From: Phycisphaerales bacterium
GTDB taxonomy: Bacteria > Planctomycetota > Phycisphaerae > Phycisphaerales > SM1A02
Reading direction: 5' to 3'
Assembly (NCBI GenBank): GCA_022447205.1
Contig: JAKVBQ010000019.1
Coordinates: 1-39,213, forward strand
DNA: 39,213 nucleotides
This document shows positions 1,004 through 8,025 of the stretch, piece after piece. How positions within the stretch are numbered: the first letter of the stretch is position 1; every line of letters starts with the position of its first letter. The position numbers and the translations under genes are program-made. Below the pieces are notes generated by a model. The model did not search any database. It saw only the letters and a list, made by a program, of their open reading frames with translations, and was not told where the DNA came from.

Positions 1004-2506
1004 TCAGTGACCGCCGGCGGTCCGCTCGTTGTTGAGCGGGACCACGCGAGGTGTCGCTCCCTCGGGAAGCAGGAGATGCAGGATCAGCCCGCTCCCGTGC
1101 AGGTCGCTGCAGGCGGCGGCATCATCGACCAGCAGGTCGAGCCTGAGCCCGTTCGACGAGAACCCGGGTATGGACATGGCACGCGTGATCAACTGCTCGT
1201 TGCGTCGGACCCAGGTCTCGGCGGTTCGAAGCTCACGGAGCTGCGCCTCGCGGGCGATGAGGTGCACTCGCCCCGCCTCGTCGAGGCCGACCTCCACCCG
1301 GGCATCGATCGAAAGCGGTACCGGTGCGGGGCGCAGGCCGGGGAACAACGCGAGGAGCGAGCCTTCGATCGGACGGATCGGGGCCGGTGGGTCGATGGGT
1401 TCGTGGTTCGATGGTCCGGGTGGTGCATCCGGCACCTCCGGTGGCTCGGTCTCGGCGAGTGCACGGGCCTCCTCGGCACGAACCCGCTCGTCATGCTCGA
1501 AGACCTCGTCGAGTTCCTGTTCGAGCGCATCGCCGGCGGACTCGAGTGCGGGGGCATCCTCCTCGCGAGGTGCTTCCGCCGAGATGTCGATGTCGAGCGA
1601 ATCGTGGGTGGGATAGCGAGGCTCGGAAGCCTCGGTCGAACCGAGGACCGCAGGTTCGTCGACAGGCTCATCGACGGTCGCATCGGGTGCCTCCCGGGAA
1701 GCATGCCAACGGTCCGCACGGCCGGATGTGAGCCCCTCGATGACCTCCCCGCGTGCTTCCCTGAACTGTTCGATGAGTTCACGGGTCGAGAACCCGCCGG
1801 GAATCGGGATCGAATGGTCCTCGAACGGCCTGAGGCCGCTGATCCGCTGCAGGGAGTACTCGTCCCAGCGGACCTTCGCATCCATGAAGCGGCTGGCGGT
1901 CCGTTCGATCCGATCGGCCGCATTGCGTGCCTTGTCGAGCTCCGAGCCGAAGAACACCAGGCTGGTCCGTGGCGTCCGACACTCGACCTCCTTCGCGCAG
2001 TCGATGGTGTGCGCGAGCATCTTGTACGCGGCGACGACGGCCGGATCGTCGGTTCCGGAGAAGAGCAGCAGGTCTTCCTCGAGTCCGATGTAGGACGTGA
2101 TCGATTCCTCCGGACCGGGAATGACCACGAGATGACGAACGTTCGAAGCCAGCCAGTCGATCGCCTCGTCGATCGTCGCGAAGACGGGGGGCAGGGTCAG
2201 CCGAGCATCATCGTCCTCGTCGGGGAAGAAGAGCATCAGGTGACAGGTGCCCTCGTCCATCTCGATGAGACCGGAGGTGCCACCGGCAAGCGCGAGGCGC
2301 TTCACGTACTGCGGCGGCCAGATGAATCCACCGACCGGCATGTTCCCGCGGATGACGATGTCGACGTCGTTGCGGGCATCGGTGCCGTTCTCCAACGGAA
2401 CATCGGTCGTCTGCAGGGCGGGTTGGGTCGAACCGGTCACGACCGCGTCGATGAGCTCATCGATCGCATCGCCCTGGTCGCTGTCGTCGTACGGCGTGTC
2501 GTTCAT
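1004..2506 (-). CDS. MinD/ParA-like protein lacking a P-loop, partner of the ParA-CBM48 gene
   Basis: 500-residue protein of no named family. Residues about 45-235 follow the order of a MinD/FlhG-type ATPase: an LIEMDEG segment where LLxDxD is expected, a strand VRHLVVIPGP, an EDLLLFSGTDDPAVVAAYKML stretch like the 'aDevllVttP..ay.mlk' region, then a helix with ARNAADRIERTASRF before a last strand. The KGGxGKT P-loop is absent; IRGNMPVGGF occupies that place. A Pro/Glu/Asp-rich linker (about 255-365) leads to a C-terminal domain of about 115 residues that I do not recognise. Its ATG overlaps the ParA-CBM48 stop by 4 bases (ATGA), so the two are probably made together and may interact. Fold resemblance is judged by eye. 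Confidence 0.72.
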   Translation of the reverse strand: MNDTPYDDSDQGDAIDELIDAVVTGSTQPALQTTDVPLENGTDARNDVDIVIRGNMPVGGFIWPPQYVKRLALAGGTSGLIEMDEGTCHLMLFFPDEDDDARLTLPPVFATIDEAIDWLASNVRHLVVIPGPEESITSYIGLEEDLLLFSGTDDPAVVAAYKMLAHTIDCAKEVECRTPRTSLVFFGSELDKARNAADRIERTASRFMDAKVRWDEYSLQRISGLRPFEDHSIPIPGGFSTRELIEQFREARGEVIEGLTSGRADRWHASREAPDATVDEPVDEPAVLGSTEASEPRYPTHDSLDIDISAEAPREEDAPALESAGDALEQELDEVFEHDERVRAEEARALAETEPPEVPDAPPGPSNHEPIDPPAPIRPIEGSLLALFPGLRPAPVPLSIDARVEVGLDEAGRVHLIAREAQLRELRTAETWVRRNEQLITRAMSIPGFSSNGLRLDLLVDDAAACSDLHGSGLILHLLLPEGATPRVVPLNNERTAGGH

Positions 2507-3948
2507 GAATCGGGATCCGTCCCTGCCATGCCCGCACCCTCCGGGTGCCTGACCTGTTCCTGTACCACCTGAACCACGCTGCGATCGGTCTGATCCGGAC
2601 CGGTCACCCGCAGTGCAGCATAGGGATCCGGGGCCGGGACGCCATCGATGATCAACTGATATTCGTAGCGACCCGGCTTCAAGGCCACCTCGAGCTCGTG
2701 GAAACGGCCCGAATCATCGAGGGCGAGGGGCAGGCCCTCCTGGCTCCACCCACAGAAATCACCGGTCACGGCGATCCGGCCAGCCTCACCGGCGGGCTGG
2801 AGGAAGCGAACTCCGGACGGGGTCGGCACGCTGCCATAACGTTCGGGAAGACCGCTCGCGGACTCGAAGGCCTGCTGGTCATCGTCGGAATCGACCATCT
2901 TCACCGTCTGGGCGGGCAATCGGTCCCGATTCTCCGCCTGCAGCTCGGTGGGTTCGGACTCGCTGTCCACGATGCCGCGATGGCCACCCACTCCGGTTCG
3001 AACGCGCTTCAGGACATCCGCCACCCGGGTGGTGAGTGGCGCGGTGATCGAAGGTGGCTTGGGCTCCTGCATCGACTCGGGGTAGGCCGCCGACAACGGT
3101 GCCTTGGTCGCCCGCGCCTGCGCCTTGAGGGTGGTGTCCGCGGCACGCTCCGCACGGAGCCTGGTCACGTCGGTCGTCTCGTGGTCGACGACCCACTTCG
3201 CCAGTGCCGCGAAGTCCGCCGCCGCCTCGGAGCCGGGCGCATGCGCCTGGATCACCTGACCCATGCTGACCGATTCACGGAGTTCCTCGTGCTCGCGGAT
3301 CGCCACGGTCACGAGCTGGTGCGGGAACGTCTCCTCCAGCCGACGCAGCACGCCTTCGGAACGAGGGGAGTCCGGCCGATGCAGGGTCGGCAACAGGAAG
3401 AAGTCCGCTGGTCGCCCGACCTTCTCCATGAGTTTCTCGATCGTCTTCACCTGGCGTTGCGCACCCTTGAGTGCGAAGTAGCCGGTTTCCACGGGAATCA
3501 CGGTCTCGTCGGCGGCGCGCAGCGCGTTGAAGGTCAGCAGGCCGATCGAAGGCGAGCAGTCGACGATGCAGAACGCATATCGATCGGAGACCAGGTCGAG
3601 CACCTGCTCGAGACGACGATCCCGATCATGGCGATCGGCGATGCCCCCGTCGGCCTGTTCGAGCATGGCGAGTCGCATCCGGCTCGGCAGCAGGTCATGT
3701 CCCTTGCCAACCTCCCAGCAGGCATCCTTGAACCCGACGTCGTAGCGGAGATCCGCCGACATGAGGTCACCGATCCCACGCTTGATCGACCCCTCTGGAA
3801 CGCCGAGCCCCGCGGCACAGTGCCCCTGGGGATCGAGGTCGACCAGCAGCGTGGGATGACCATCCCGTGCGAGCTGGGCACTCAGGTTGATGGCGGTGGT
3901 GGTCTTCCCACAGCCGCCCTTCTGGTTGACTATCGCGATCGTCCGCAT
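2503..3948 (-). CDS. ParA/Soj-type ATPase fused to a C-terminal CBM48 (AMPK-beta-like) domain
   Basis: 481 residues. N-terminal 1-255 is a full ParA ATPase: deviant Walker A KGGCGKTT at 10-17, VDLDPQGH about 36-43, an IVDCSPSIG strand, and a C-terminal ParA helix region. A linker (about 255-380) follows. Residues about 380-465 read as a CBM48/AMPK-beta glycogen-binding module: GDFCGW, a GRYEYQLIIDG strand pair, and DPYA. The start is placed at the ATG directly before the P-loop strand; the frame is open 13 codons further but that stretch looks non-coding. ParA ATPases normally form nucleotide-dependent dimers that position DNA or protein cargo. No parB or parS is visible, so the cargo may be something else. 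It lies 107 bases after aroB and overlaps the next gene by 4 bases. Confidence 0.88.
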   Translation of the reverse strand: MRTIAIVNQKGGCGKTTTAINLSAQLARDGHPTLLVDLDPQGHCAAGLGVPEGSIKRGIGDLMSADLRYDVGFKDACWEVGKGHDLLPSRMRLAMLEQADGGIADRHDRDRRLEQVLDLVSDRYAFCIVDCSPSIGLLTFNALRAADETVIPVETGYFALKGAQRQVKTIEKLMEKVGRPADFFLLPTLHRPDSPRSEGVLRRLEETFPHQLVTVAIREHEELRESVSMGQVIQAHAPGSEAAADFAALAKWVVDHETTDVTRLRAERAADTTLKAQARATKAPLSAAYPESMQEPKPPSITAPLTTRVADVLKRVRTGVGGHRGIVDSESEPTELQAENRDRLPAQTVKMVDSDDDQQAFESASGLPERYGSVPTPSGVRFLQPAGEAGRIAVTGDFCGWSQEGLPLALDDSGRFHELEVALKPGRYEYQLIIDGVPAPDPYAALRVTGPDQTDRSVVQVVQEQVRHPEGAGMAGTDPDS

Positions 3949-4055: not shown

Positions 4056-5192
4056 TCAGTCGCCGGAGACCCCGACCGCTCGCCAGCCCTCGAGCAGAAG
4101 GTCGCGCTCCGGAGCCTCATGCATCCGAACCGAGCCACGACCGGTGGGCACCACGATCGACAGGTTTCCGCGACGGACCTTCTTGTCCCAGCCCATCCGT
4201 TTGATGAGCTGACCGGCCTCGACACGGCCCTTGACCGAGACCGGCAGGCCACACGCCTCGAGCGTGGACCGGAGCTCGTCGCAGTCGACCTGGCTCCAGT
4301 CTCCCAACGCACGAGCACAGGCCCCCGCCGCGACCAGGCCGATCGCGACCGCCTCGCCATGCTTCAGTCCCAGCTCGGGAAGCGGCTCGATCGCGTGGGC
4401 GAAGGTGTGCCCGAGGTTCAGGAAGGCACGTGCAACGCCTGCACCGGCACCACGTTCCTCACGAACGTCCGCACCGACGACGTTCACCTTGATCGCCGCG
4501 GAACGAGCGACCAGCGAGCCACAGGCGGCCACGTCCCCATCGAGGATCCCGGGAGCCTGTTCGCGCAGCGCCTCGAGCAGGGACCAGTCGGCGATGAGCG
4601 CATGCTTGACGCACTCCGCGAGTCCGCAGGAGCGTTCGCGAGCGGGCAGTGATCGGAGCACCTCGGGATCGGAGACCACCCCGACCGGTTGCCAGAAGGC
4701 GCCGACGAGGTTCTTACCGAGCGCGCCGTCGGGAAGCGGCAGGTTCACGCCGGTCTTCCCGCCGATCGAGGCGTCCACCATCGCCAGCAACGTGGTCGGC
4801 ACCTGAAGGACGGGGATCCCCCGCAACCAGCTGGCGGCGACGAACCCAGCGAGGTCCCCGATGATGCCGCCGCCGACCGCGACCACCGCACCGGATCGAT
4901 CGATCCGTTCCCGGGCAGCCGCCTCGAGGAGGGCCTGGTGCACGTCGAGGGTCTTGTTCGATTCGAGGGCCTCGATCGTGGCGAAGGCCACGGAAAAACC
5001 TGCGCCTTCAAGGGCGCCGGCGACCTGCTCGGCATGGGTTTCCGCGACCGCGTGGTCGGCGACGAGGAGGATCCGCCTGCCGGAGGCGTCACCGAGGGCG
5101 TCGCGCAGGATCGTCCCGCACCGCGCAAGGGCGCCGGACTCCACGAGCACGTCGTAGGACTGATCACCGAGGGGGACGTTGAGTACGGTCAT
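4056..5192 (-). CDS. aroB: 3-dehydroquinate synthase
   Basis: 378 residues, usual family length. Catalyses the NAD- and metal-dependent cyclisation of DAHP to 3-dehydroquinate, second step of the shikimate pathway, in the cytosol. Seen: NAD-binding GGGIIGDLAGF at about 107-117, PTTLLAMVDASIGGKTGVN at 132-150, a metal-ligand region ECVKHALI, and LNLGHTFAHAIE with KHGEAVAIG. The ATG overlaps the upstream membrane-protein stop by 4 bases, so translation is coupled. No other shikimate gene lies in the window. Confidence 0.97.
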   Translation of the reverse strand: MTVLNVPLGDQSYDVLVESGALARCGTILRDALGDASGRRILLVADHAVAETHAEQVAGALEGAGFSVAFATIEALESNKTLDVHQALLEAAARERIDRSGAVVAVGGGIIGDLAGFVAASWLRGIPVLQVPTTLLAMVDASIGGKTGVNLPLPDGALGKNLVGAFWQPVGVVSDPEVLRSLPARERSCGLAECVKHALIADWSLLEALREQAPGILDGDVAACGSLVARSAAIKVNVVGADVREERGAGAGVARAFLNLGHTFAHAIEPLPELGLKHGEAVAIGLVAAGACARALGDWSQVDCDELRSTLEACGLPVSVKGRVEAGQLIKRMGWDKKVRRGNLSIVVPTGRGSVRMHEAPERDLLLEGWRAVGVSGD

Positions 5193-5935
5193 TGGTCGGC
5201 CTTCCTGATGGGATCATCGTGCCGTCGAGCCAATTCGTCGAGTGCGGAGACCGGATCGGTCGGGAGGACCCCGTCGGTCGACGGGCCCGGAACCTCGACG
5301 GGAGGCTCCTTGGCGGGGGTCCGCGCCTCGAACCGCCTCGACAGGAGGCGCAGCATGAACCAGGCGAGGAGCATCCCGACGACGAGGGCCATCAGGATCG
5401 GGCGGGACGGGAAGGTGGATGCGACCGGAATCGACCGTCCGACGAAGGCGGACCAGGTCCGCTCGGTGCCGTCACGGGCCTGCGCCGAGATCCGCTTGTA
5501 GTGCCGTGCGATCACCTCGACCTGAGCGCCGATCTCCAGATCCTCCTCGCGTGGCAGGTAGATCGCGACGACTTCCCCGTCGGGGCACTGCACGAACCAT
5601 TCGACGCAGCCGTCCCAGGGCGGGTCGAGCACCGAGGTCTGTTCGAGCCGTCCGCGCAGGAGCGCAGGTCGACCGCGCCAGGCATCGGGCTCCTCGCGAG
5701 CGGCGATGACCATGCCCGACGTCCATGACTCGACACCCGTCGGATCGATGGTCTCCATTTCGAGCCGGGCCAGCGCCGTGAACAACGCGGCAAAGGCCGC
5801 CTCCTGGTGATCGCGATCATCGACCGCGGTGGCCAGTGCGGTCCGCTCCTCAGATGTCAGCACACCCAGCGCGTCATCCGGCGTGGATGACGAGAGCATG
5901 ACGAGCGAGGCGATCAGGACCGGTTCCAGGAACAC
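5189..5935 (-). CDS. membrane-anchored extracytoplasmic protein of unknown function
   Basis: About 248 residues. The N-terminus is a hydrophobic signal or anchor segment (FLEPVLIASLVML). The middle, roughly 70-170, is a soluble region with a WRGRPALLRGRLEQ motif and a beta-rich stretch ending in GAQVEVIARHYKR. A single membrane helix (ILMALVVGMLLAWFMLRLL) follows, with a charged cytoplasmic tail. Start: the frame opens with a TTG at 5947, but the GTG at 5935 has a GGAG six bases ahead and is preferred. It leads the aroB operon with an ATGA overlap. I do not recognise a family. Confidence 0.75.
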   Translation of the reverse strand: MFLEPVLIASLVMLSSSTPDDALGVLTSEERTALATAVDDRDHQEAAFAALFTALARLEMETIDPTGVESWTSGMVIAAREEPDAWRGRPALLRGRLEQTSVLDPPWDGCVEWFVQCPDGEVVAIYLPREEDLEIGAQVEVIARHYKRISAQARDGTERTWSAFVGRSIPVASTFPSRPILMALVVGMLLAWFMLRLLSRRFEARTPAKEPPVEVPGPSTDGVLPTDPVSALDELARRHDDPIRKADQ

Positions 5936-6006
5936 CCGATGCTCCAACCAGGGGAGCGGCAGACGACGTGAAGGCGCCGGCGTCCAGACTCCCGGTCAAA
6001 GAGAAC

Positions 6007-6177: not shown

Positions 6178-6273
6178 CGTGAGGGGCGATGTGTGTGGAC
6201 TTCTGGCAGGATCAATCGGGGGTTTTTCCAGGATCCCCGAAAGGAGAACCCACCATCGGTCGATCTATGGGAC

Positions 6274-6672
6274 ATGACCAGAACCTACCTGACCAGGATC
6301 CGCTACCGGTATGGACGCCTCTTCTCGGCGGTTGCGCTGCTGACCGGCGGACTCGCCATCGGGCTCACCGCTCAACCCAGGGGGGTTTCCGCCACCGACA
6401 TCGAGGTGAACGCCACCGTGCCCACCACCCCTGAGCAGGTGACCGTGGACACCACATTCCACTCGGTGATGCGATTCGGACAGGTCTACGTCATCTTCCG
6501 TCACCACCCGACCGAGGAACGCAGTTGCTGGAGCGTCCATGACCTGGACGGCACGATCCTCGGGATCCATGCCGATCGACAGGCGGTGGAAGCCTTCTTC
6601 CCCGAGGTGGATACGGCCGAACTGATGTTCGCGGCGATCCGGAACCTCCGCGAGACCGACACCACGAACTGA
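6274..6672 (+). CDS. small single-pass membrane or secreted protein, unknown function
   Basis: 132 residues. Basic N-terminus (RTYLTRIRYRYGRL) followed by one hydrophobic segment (FSAVALLTGGLAIGLTA), then a soluble domain of about 90 residues with VDTTFHSVMRFGQVYVIFRH and a central CWSVHDLDGTILG beta-hairpin. The ATG at 6274 is the only good start after the tRNA; the frame is open upstream but would run through the tRNA gene. An AAGGAG lies 28 bases upstream, too far for an ordinary Shine-Dalgarno. No family recognised. Confidence 0.65.
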   Translation: MTRTYLTRIRYRYGRLFSAVALLTGGLAIGLTAQPRGVSATDIEVNATVPTTPEQVTVDTTFHSVMRFGQVYVIFRHHPTEERSCWSVHDLDGTILGIHADRQAVEAFFPEVDTAELMFAAIRNLRETDTTN

Positions 6673-6693
6673 CCTCGAGGGATCCCCCCCTGC

Positions 6694-6699
6694 TACGCT
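6694..6699 (+). promoter_or_regulatory. -10 box close to the phosphorylase-like gene start
   Basis: TACGCT, 7 bases before the ATG at 6707. This predicts transcription starting at or next to the start codon (see the leaderless finding). No convincing -35. Confidence 0.4.
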
Positions 6700-6706
6700 C
6701 ATGATC

Positions 6707-7372
6707 ATGGATCATGGTGCGCCGGTCATCGTCTGCCCGCTCGAATTCGAACGACGAGCCCTGCTTCGAAGCGGGGTGTCGCTGCCATGTCGCATCGAGG
6801 TCTCCGGACCCGGACATGAAGGCATCACGAGATGGGCGGGCGCGAACCGGAAGCACGCAGGACCGGTGATCCTGACCGGTCTGGCCGGCGGCCTGGTGCC
6901 GTCGATGCAGGTGGGCATGACGGTGCTCGTCGATGCGGTGGTGGCCGCAGGCGGCAGGCGGCACACGCCCCCATGGCAACCGGGCATCACCAGGGACCTG
7001 GCCCGTGGCGCGGTGACCTCGACGACCCGAGTGGTGACCTCCCACCCCGCCAAGGGATCGTTGCACAAGGTCACCGGAGCCGAGCTCGTCGACATGGAAT
7101 CACTGTCCTTCGCACGAGTGGGAGACGAACTCGGCTGGCAGTACGGCATCATCAGGGGTGTCGGTGACAGTCTCGAGGAACCGCTCCCGCCGGGGTGCGA
7201 CCGCTGGGTCGATCACAATGGTCGCCCCGCCTACGGCGCGATCGGCAAGTCGCTGTTCCAGAATCCCCTGTCGATCCGCCGAATGCGGGAATTGAAACGA
7301 ACCGGTGAGGCGGTGATGGCAGGCGTTGCGGAACTGCTGGCATCCACCCTGGCCACGGGGCGGTCCGGATGA
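6707..7372 (+). CDS. nucleoside phosphorylase/nucleosidase-like protein
   Basis: 221 residues of the PNP/UDP-phosphorylase fold (MTA/SAH nucleosidase group). Seen: PVIVCPLEFERRAL at the N-terminus as in MTA/SAH nucleosidases, a glycine-rich TGLAGGLVPSMQVG strand-turn, and the signature ELVDMES with the base- and ribose-contacting residues, followed by a YGIIRGVGDS strand. The protein is slightly short for the family, and similar short members occur as hopanoid-associated phosphorylases; no hopanoid genes are here. Two ATGs (6701, 6707) are in frame; the second fits the nearby -10 box better. The stop overlaps nadD by 4 bases. Confidence 0.75.
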   Translation: MDHGAPVIVCPLEFERRALLRSGVSLPCRIEVSGPGHEGITRWAGANRKHAGPVILTGLAGGLVPSMQVGMTVLVDAVVAAGGRRHTPPWQPGITRDLARGAVTSTTRVVTSHPAKGSLHKVTGAELVDMESLSFARVGDELGWQYGIIRGVGDSLEEPLPPGCDRWVDHNGRPAYGAIGKSLFQNPLSIRRMRELKRTGEAVMAGVAELLASTLATGRSG

Positions 7373-8025
7373 GTCAGAACCCCGGACCGATCATCCTCTT
7401 CGGTGGGACCTTCGACCCGCCCCATCGGGGACACGTGGAGCTGCCTGCACGCGCGGCCGATCTCGTGGGCGCAAGCAAGGTGCTCTTCATTCCGACCGGA
7501 GTCAATCCCCAGAAGACGACACATCCGCCAACCGAGGCGATCCATCGAGTCGCGATGCTCGAAGCCGGCATCACAGGGGATCCGCGTGCCTCGATCTCGA
7601 GGCTCGAACTGGAACGGAGCGGTCCCAGCTACACCGTCGACACGGTGACCGCACTCGATGCCGCCCTTGGACCGGAACACCCGCCGATGCGGCTCCTGAT
7701 CGGCGCGGACCAGGCCCTGAACTTCAGGACCTGGCGACGATGGCAGGAGCTCGAGGCACTCGCGGAACCGCTGGTGATGCCACGTGCCCCCCACACCATC
7801 GACCGGCTCGAGGAACGGTTCGAGGAGGCCCACCCCGGAGAGGCCGGCAAATGGATGGGCCGGGTGCTGGATCTCCCGGAAGTCGATATCTGCTCGACGA
7901 CCATCAGGGAAGCCGTCCGGACGGGGTCCGATCTCGAGACGATGCTCACGAAACCGATCATCGACTACATCCTCGAGAACGGACTCTACGGTGCGCCACC
8001 CCGGCAGGGTAGAATCGGGACATGA
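7369..8025 (+). CDS. nadD: nicotinate-nucleotide adenylyltransferase
   Basis: 218 residues. Transfers AMP from ATP to nicotinate mononucleotide, giving deamido-NAD, in NAD biosynthesis. Seen: the nucleotidyltransferase signature GGTFDPPHRGH at 12-22 (HxGH-type site), a GPSYTVDTV segment, LIGADQALNFRTWRRW, and the C-terminal STTIREAV motif that matches the SSTxIR adenylate-binding element. Coupled by ATGA overlaps to the phosphorylase-like gene before it and rimO after it. Confidence 0.96.
   Translation: MSQNPGPIILFGGTFDPPHRGHVELPARAADLVGASKVLFIPTGVNPQKTTHPPTEAIHRVAMLEAGITGDPRASISRLELERSGPSYTVDTVTALDAALGPEHPPMRLLIGADQALNFRTWRRWQELEALAEPLVMPRAPHTIDRLEERFEEAHPGEAGKWMGRVLDLPEVDICSTTIREAVRTGSDLETMLTKPIIDYILENGLYGAPPRQGRIGT
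8010..8015 (+). promoter_or_regulatory. -10 box of an internal rimO promoter
   Basis: TAGAAT inside the last codons of nadD, exactly 6 bases before the rimO ATG at 8022. Same box and spacing as lpxA. It would give a leaderless rimO mRNA in addition to the operon read-through. Confidence 0.45.

Follow-up and report, generated by a model that had tools for sequence, protein, structure and literature searches.

A conserved ParA-CBM48 fusion protein and its FlhG-like partner without a P-loop in Phycisphaerales and other bacteria

What task could a ParA-type ATPase perform with a carbohydrate-binding module at its C-terminus? The question is raised by a 39,213-nucleotide stretch of DNA from a Phycisphaerales bacterium (the window, meaning the whole stretch analysed), in which the gene P0001 (2503..3948, minus strand; 481 amino acids in one open frame) codes for a Soj-like ParA ATPase domain (residues 1-258; 3175..3948, minus strand), a disordered linker (residues 259-370; 2839..3174, minus strand), and an AMPK-beta-type CBM48 (residues 371-444; 2617..2838, minus strand). 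The original prediction, made from the sequence alone, recognized this fusion and proposed that it might position glycogen granules. The answer favoured here, to which we assign a probability of roughly 0.5, is that P0001 and the adjoining gene P0002 of the window code for the core pair of a ParA positioning system operating without ParB, in which the degenerate FlhG-like protein from P0002 would serve as adaptor.

The fusion of ParA and CBM48 is confirmed as real. Its N-terminal domain carries the deviant Walker A motif KGGxGKT (KGGCGKTT in P0001; the motif is found in 59 of 60 orthologs, the remaining one being unreadable at this place) together with the DxDPQ and D-C/S-PP stretches of ParA/Soj ATPases (DLDPQ and DCSPS). 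It matches AAA_31 of Pfam over residues 1-176 with 1.1e-40 and shows the Soj fold (Foldseek TMt 0.90; VIA-align Z 36.9) at 30-35% identity to Soj structures, so the proposed complete Soj/ParA ATPase is borne out. In the AlphaFold2 model, both the ParA domain and an all-beta tail (372-461) are predicted with confidence and are separated by a region of mostly low confidence containing a helix at residues 261-281. The Foldseek and VIA-align lists for the fusion are taken up by matches of the ParA domain and are therefore uninformative on the CBM48. In Pfam, the tail of the window copy matches AMPK1_CBM over residues 388-442 with 3.7e-05 and 24.3 bits, just under the curated cut-off of 26.8, and CBM_48 with 0.0074. 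Among 39 aligned orthologs, picked from those whose sequence extends to the tail, AMPK1_CBM is matched at E<=0.01 by 38, with 2.2e-15 as the best value, and CBM_48 by 30. AMPK-beta structures are also recovered with the tail of the ortholog L085, at 1.2e-10.

Orthologs of the ParA are present in 60 of the 61 genomes of an order set comprising the window genome (G000) and 60 relatives from its order, the last genome (G027) containing a canonical-type match only. Scored with a CBM48 profile of our own at E<1e-10, 47 of the 57 readable loci contain the CBM48, 10 consist of a complete open reading frame without it, and three more are cut off at contig ends. Beyond the order, reading of the loci revealed the CBM48 in six class-level genomes and in G116, a member of another family of the phylum. 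A confinement of the fusion to the order, which was considered when the matches of a full-length alignment in 294 genomes of the phylum ended before the CBM48, is ruled out, because the loci themselves carry it. A scan of named genomes gave no match with a single protein as query, but matches with an alignment; the CBM48 is found in 60 of the 80 loci taken as the best of a larger number. Nine of these best 80 lie outside the named planctomycetes and bear the CBM48, namely in Myxococcota/Myxococcales (L201, L203, L212), Deltaproteobacteria (L208, L210, L211), Nitrospirae (L204), Ca. Eisenbacteria (L214), and an unnamed bacterium (L209), whose ParA groups with that of L201. An error joining two separate genes, the objection raised at the outset, is refuted by the recurrence of fused orthologs in dozens of assemblies. 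ParA-CBM48 is thus a conserved bacterial gene of several phyla, on which no publication was found as judged from titles and listings. As a side observation, near-identical ParAs occur in metagenome-assembled genomes (MAGs) labelled Actinomycetota, Bifidobacterium breve, Ca. Fonsibacter lacus, Planctomycetota, and Singulisphaera (L218, L219, L221; L169, L185, L078), indicating that certain MAGs are probably misnamed or contain foreign sequence.

Directly downstream of the fusion gene, and absent from the original prediction, lies P0002 (1004..2506, minus strand; 500 amino acids), which overlaps the ParA gene by 4 bases and codes for a pseudo-FlhG/MinD domain (residues 46-228; 1823..2371, minus strand) and a C-terminal domain (residues 405-489; 1040..1294, minus strand). 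Pfam and NCBIfam give no match for P0002 and nothing consistent for the other partners or the third gene described below, the partner of L204 showing a weak match to CbiA (0.02). The profile of the order partners has FlhG as its best match in the PDB (9.9e-4), and so has the model of P0002 in Foldseek (5.4e-5); the seven best VIA rows for this model are FlhG or FleN, with Z values from 10.9 to 9.1 over about residues 46-228. A second profile (A3), built from eight partners (seven loci of other phyla, including L207 next to a CBM-less ParA, plus G116), yields much lower values against the PDB (FlhG, 5.6e-18; FleN, 2e-15) and is homologous to the profile of the order partners (A1; hhalign 95.8%, 7.6e-9). 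The Walker A stretch is replaced in the A3 partners, and a search over the whole length finds GxxxxGK[ST] in none of 62 partners. These profile and fold matches, together with the missing P-loop, identify the partner by sequence as a dead FlhG/MinD-like protein. Its kinship with the ParA of P0001 was also considered and, hhalign giving no match, rejected in favour of this FlhG-like identity.

The partner lies directly behind the ParA gene in 53 of the 60 order loci, 18 of which show the exact 4-base overlap in the genes as called; four of the seven misses are due to contig ends. Outside the order set, three partner profiles were applied to the 2.4 kb behind ParA in 87 loci (the best 80 named ones and L122-L128, with some genomes included twice). 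All nine CBM-bearing loci that lie outside the named planctomycetes have an adjacent partner. Of these partners, six were members of the profiles, whereas those of L209, L211, and L214 were not and were found by profile at 9.7e-92, 3.4e-65, and 2.8e-11. Altogether, 35 of the 67 surveyed CBM-bearing loci have an adjacent partner, 30 have none, and two are on contigs that end; the corresponding numbers for the 20 CBM-less loci are 10, 8, and two.

In all nine loci outside the named planctomycetes, and also in L207, the partner gene is followed by a third gene (L203:8024-8674, L204:5088-5702, L207:7844-8413, L208:7947-8534, L210:6872-7444, and L212:2811-3494, each on the plus strand). A profile (A4) from six loci, with proteins of 189-227 amino acids, recognizes it in L201 (7.1e-40), L209 (4.3e-36), L211 (7.6e-42), and L214 (2.6e-16). 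Residues 405-489 of P0002 are homologous to this third protein (hhalign 89.9%, 1.7e-6), and P0002 is, as judged from this profile comparison, a fusion of two proteins which are encoded separately elsewhere, supporting a joint function. The third protein shows no Pfam match and no match below 0.75 in a profile search of the PDB. The family has a tail of GLT/GLS-(D/E) type, and its core recalls PD-(D/E)XK-type folds, by eye only.

A further feature of the partner is found at its N-terminus. ParB activates ParA through an N-terminal motif (PMC12462528), and the partners of ParA/MinD ATPases generally act via a charged N-terminus (PMC10241942). The partner of G346 carries a box like that of ParB, MKDRPKLGRGLSDV near its start, as compared by eye with MKARPRLGKGIDAL in the ParB of the same genome. 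Boxes recognized in the same way are KRKKLGRGIEDF in G116, KKRLGKSLDDI in L207, REGRGISSIA in G115, and SRRRGIGSIA in L190, and a basic/aliphatic motif is likewise seen by eye in the partner of L178. In most Myxococcota-type loci, the partner opens with a short RDLxDVxHYF, and in the order partners a helix of the DELAALFLT type remains, from which the basic residues are mostly gone. The corresponding helix of P0002 (residues 9-23; 2438..2482, minus strand) appears by position and pattern to be the counterpart of the ParB-like box of the distant homologs. A phmmer search with one 30-residue box returned nothing relevant.

A first alternative explanation of the locus is that P0001 is a chromosome-partitioning ParA acting in trans with a ParB encoded elsewhere, its activity being merely tuned by the partner and the CBM48. 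The original prediction had seen neither parB nor parS, and both statements hold: ParB is not encoded beside P0001, the downstream gene having no ParB or other Pfam match; the ParB of G000 is located on another contig; and the 39,213 bases contain no match to the parS consensus at up to two mismatches, as opposed to two sites with two mismatches each at the parB locus of G000. ParB is present in all 30 genomes tested. The 9-kb stretches around parB in G000, G001, G115, and G046 (L222, L225, L228, L229) contain no ParA-like open reading frame, and in G053 (L226) parB has no ParA nearby except the ParA-CBM48, about 4 kb away. Many class-level loci without a recognized partner would also fit this explanation. 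It is opposed by a second ParA match (E<=1e-20) in 57 of the 60 ortholog genomes (all except G022, G026, and G041) and by an unrooted tree of the ParA domains (79 rows; L194 was left out as it is without the trimming motif). In this tree, 21 canonical ParAs, three of which adjoin parB, form one side of a branch supported with 97/90, and the 43 CBM48-bearing rows stand opposite, together with scattered CBM-less relatives. The lineage of P0001 therefore does not group with ParB-adjacent ParAs and stands apart from canonical ParA; for its CBM48, a single gain followed by several losses is probable. As G343, G346, and G348 possess a canonical ParA adjoining parB in addition to the separate fusion gene, and as the window is without parS, a role in trans with ParB appears unlikely.

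The ligand of the CBM48 is of interest for two further explanations. In AMPK-beta, sugar is contacted by Trp100, Trp133, Lys126, and Asn150; the exchange of both Trp makes AMPK unresponsive to beta-cyclodextrin, and PTST needs the matching pair to bind starch (PMC9788615, PMC4339375). In an alignment of 107 distinct CBM48s of the ParA-CBM48 family, Trp is present at the Trp100 site in 103 and at the Trp133 site in 91, with both retained in 91, Arg or Lys occupies the Lys126 site in 98, and the Asn150 site contains Asn in 17 and Ser in 83. The window copy shows W, P, Q, and S at the Trp100, Trp133, Lys126, and Asn150 sites and is without the full set of glucan contacts. These residues suggest that glucan binding may be ancestral in the family and has likely been lost in the window copy, whose CBM48 probably serves for contact with a protein and not as an anchor to glucan. 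The view that the CBM48 acts purely within the molecule or in binding the partner, and that no member of the family has a sugar ligand, seems rather improbable: the domain is retained in genomes without the four glycogen markers treated below, and Ser at the Asn150 site is consistent with it, but the conservation of the Trp pair and of the basic residue at the Lys126 site exceeds what the upkeep of the fold appears to require.

The proposal of the original prediction, namely that the CBM48 holds a glycogen or alpha-glucan granule which the ParA distributes to the daughter cells, is not supported and is regarded as quite improbable. It can draw on the retained Trp pair, which matters for sugar binding in AMPK-beta and PTST, and on the window genome itself, which encodes an alpha-glucan phosphorylase (TIGR02094, 744.7 bits) and a GlgB-like enzyme (L134:713-2893, minus strand; L135:1127-3487, plus strand). 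TIGR02094 is found in 53 of 77 genomes, 43 of them within the order set of 61. Moreover, the Myxococcales MAG L212 has a phosphoglucomutase/phosphomannomutase gene (6192-7736, minus strand) at a distance of about 3.4 kb behind the partner. Of the remaining markers, GlgA is found in just two of the 61 order-set genomes and in 4 of 17 others (G300 of the window's family being one of the 17), TIGR01515 in 30 of 61 (7 above the cut-off) and 8 of 16 others, and PF00343 in 37 of 61 and 3 of 9 others. The window genome also shows no GlgA beside its phosphorylase and GlgB-like enzyme, so that its alpha-glucan metabolism departs from the classical route. Six of the nine fusion genomes outside the named planctomycetes (G341, G342, G344, G345, G347, G348) contain none of GlgA, TIGR01515, TIGR02094, and PF00343, although their CBM48s retain both Trp; these negatives are softened by the incompleteness of MAGs and by the omission of the GlgE and GH57 routes from the four markers. 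Genomes with CBM-less orthologs are not glycogen-poor, since within the order TIGR02094 occurs in 33 of 47 CBM-bearing versus 9 of 10 CBM-less genomes and TIGR01515 in 21 of 47 versus 9 of 10, a trend which is uncorrected for kinship and runs opposite to the glycogen idea. The missing second Trp of the window copy adds to these objections.

Finally, a regulator of flagella or cell poles, in which the FlhG-derived partner and the ParA control the placement of a surface organelle, is very improbable in spite of the best fold and profile matches of the partner to FlhG and FleN, because the missing P-loop excludes an FlhG switch, FlhG-like proteins with an intact P-loop coexist in two genomes read, and among the neighbouring genes inspected none was recognized as flagellar, for which no systematic search was made.

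The reading as a ParB-less positioning system with a pseudo-FlhG adaptor has to be held against several observations which weigh against it. Three order loci (L084, L088, L089) contain no recognized partner for reasons other than a contig end, L088 having an unrecognized open reading frame with the same 4-base overlap behind its ParA. The 30 partnerless CBM-bearing loci of the wider survey are on contigs that continue or nearly do so and belong mainly to class-level Phycisphaerae, and the pair of ParA and partner is accordingly not universal. A search with profile A6 through five whole partnerless genomes (G197, G212, G261, G310, G334) gave one match each, located elsewhere, and the two readable ones (L236, L238) have an intact P-loop and resemble true FlhG. 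The basic residues of the N-terminal box are lost from most order partners and from the window copy, the partner finds no match in the ParA family by hhalign, and parB without a neighbouring ParA in G000 makes a ParB acting in trans conceivable. The survey thus strengthens the pair in other phyla and weakens it in the class-level loci, whose ParA may be an orphan or may act with a partner that is unrecognizable. The safest statement is that of a distinct and old ParA lineage with an accessory CBM48, which across most of its order, as in other phyla, is accompanied by a dedicated pseudo-FlhG partner.

Upstream of the fusion gene lies aroB (4056..5192, minus strand), whose family is found in 39 of the 60 loci and which is probably not part of the ParA-CBM48 system, and upstream of aroB lies a gene for a protein of unknown function (5189-5947, minus strand; family in 23 of 60 loci), whose sequence suggests a membrane anchor. 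Two neighbour clusters, 9 (19 loci) and 17 (10 loci), resemble glycosyltransferases, their representatives having been judged by eye. Ten proteins encoded near L204, L207, L210, and L212 reveal no common theme; they include OmpA-like, DUF362, ferredoxin-like, LPP20, and HAD proteins and a Cys/Met PLP enzyme, besides the phosphoglucomutase/phosphomannomutase of L212.

If the ParA-CBM48 protein and its partner form a positioning system, as is probable, its operation may be outlined by homology. The ATP-bound ParA dimer would reside on the nucleoid, and the N-terminal helix of the partner would dock on this dimer and stimulate ATP hydrolysis like the N-terminus of ParB. The pseudo-FlhG and C-terminal domains of the partner would attach to the cargo, and the CBM48 would serve as an accessory module for regulation or docking, the ancestral form of which could bind either a protein or an alpha-glucan-like ligand. 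A tentative extension, which we consider possible but on the unlikely side, envisages AMPK-beta-like sensing on a ParA motor. By binding to the CBM48, an alpha-glucan (or a protein bearing a metabolite) would set the nucleoid-binding or ATPase cycle, with the pseudo-FlhG and the third protein linking the ParA to a cargo. In that case, the energy or carbon state of the cell would control intracellular positioning through an old system common to several phyla. The presence of the family in nearly the whole order set and in MAGs of other phyla suggests that knowledge of its cargo would be useful in general. Direct tests are possible for the CBM48 ligand as well as for an activation by the partner.

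A comparison with known systems shows what is shared and what is particular. Plasmids, chromosomes, carboxysomes, and chemotaxis arrays are among the cargoes of ParA/MinD ATPases, many of which are 'orphans' without a known partner (PMC10241942). The chromosomal Soj/ParA of ParABS systems has the same fold and Walker motifs as P0001, which differs in its separate lineage, its C-terminal CBM48, and a locus with a pseudo-FlhG partner instead of ParB and parS. In McdA/McdB and other cargo-positioning systems, as described in the same paper, the gene for a ParA-like ATPase likewise stands beside that of a dedicated partner with a charged N-terminus, a feature shared by several of the distant partners. 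The partner treated here is distinguished by its degenerate FlhG/MinD-like nature and the ATPase by its CBM48, McdA itself having been compared by fold ranking only. FlhG and FleN share fold and sequence profile with the partner's domain, but the partner is devoid of a P-loop in all 62 cases and has in addition an N-terminal helix and, among the order partners, a C-terminal domain. The CBM48 is of the AMPK-beta kind, with the Trp pair of AMPK beta and plant PTST in most members of the family, and PTST is described as a CBM48 protein localizing another protein to starch (PMC4339375); here the module is fused to a ParA ATPase, and the second Trp is missing from the window copy. Compared with these systems, the ParA-CBM48 family offers a defined pair of ATPase and partner, a partner class built on a MinD-like ATPase that is dead, and a motor which itself bears a carbohydrate-binding fold.

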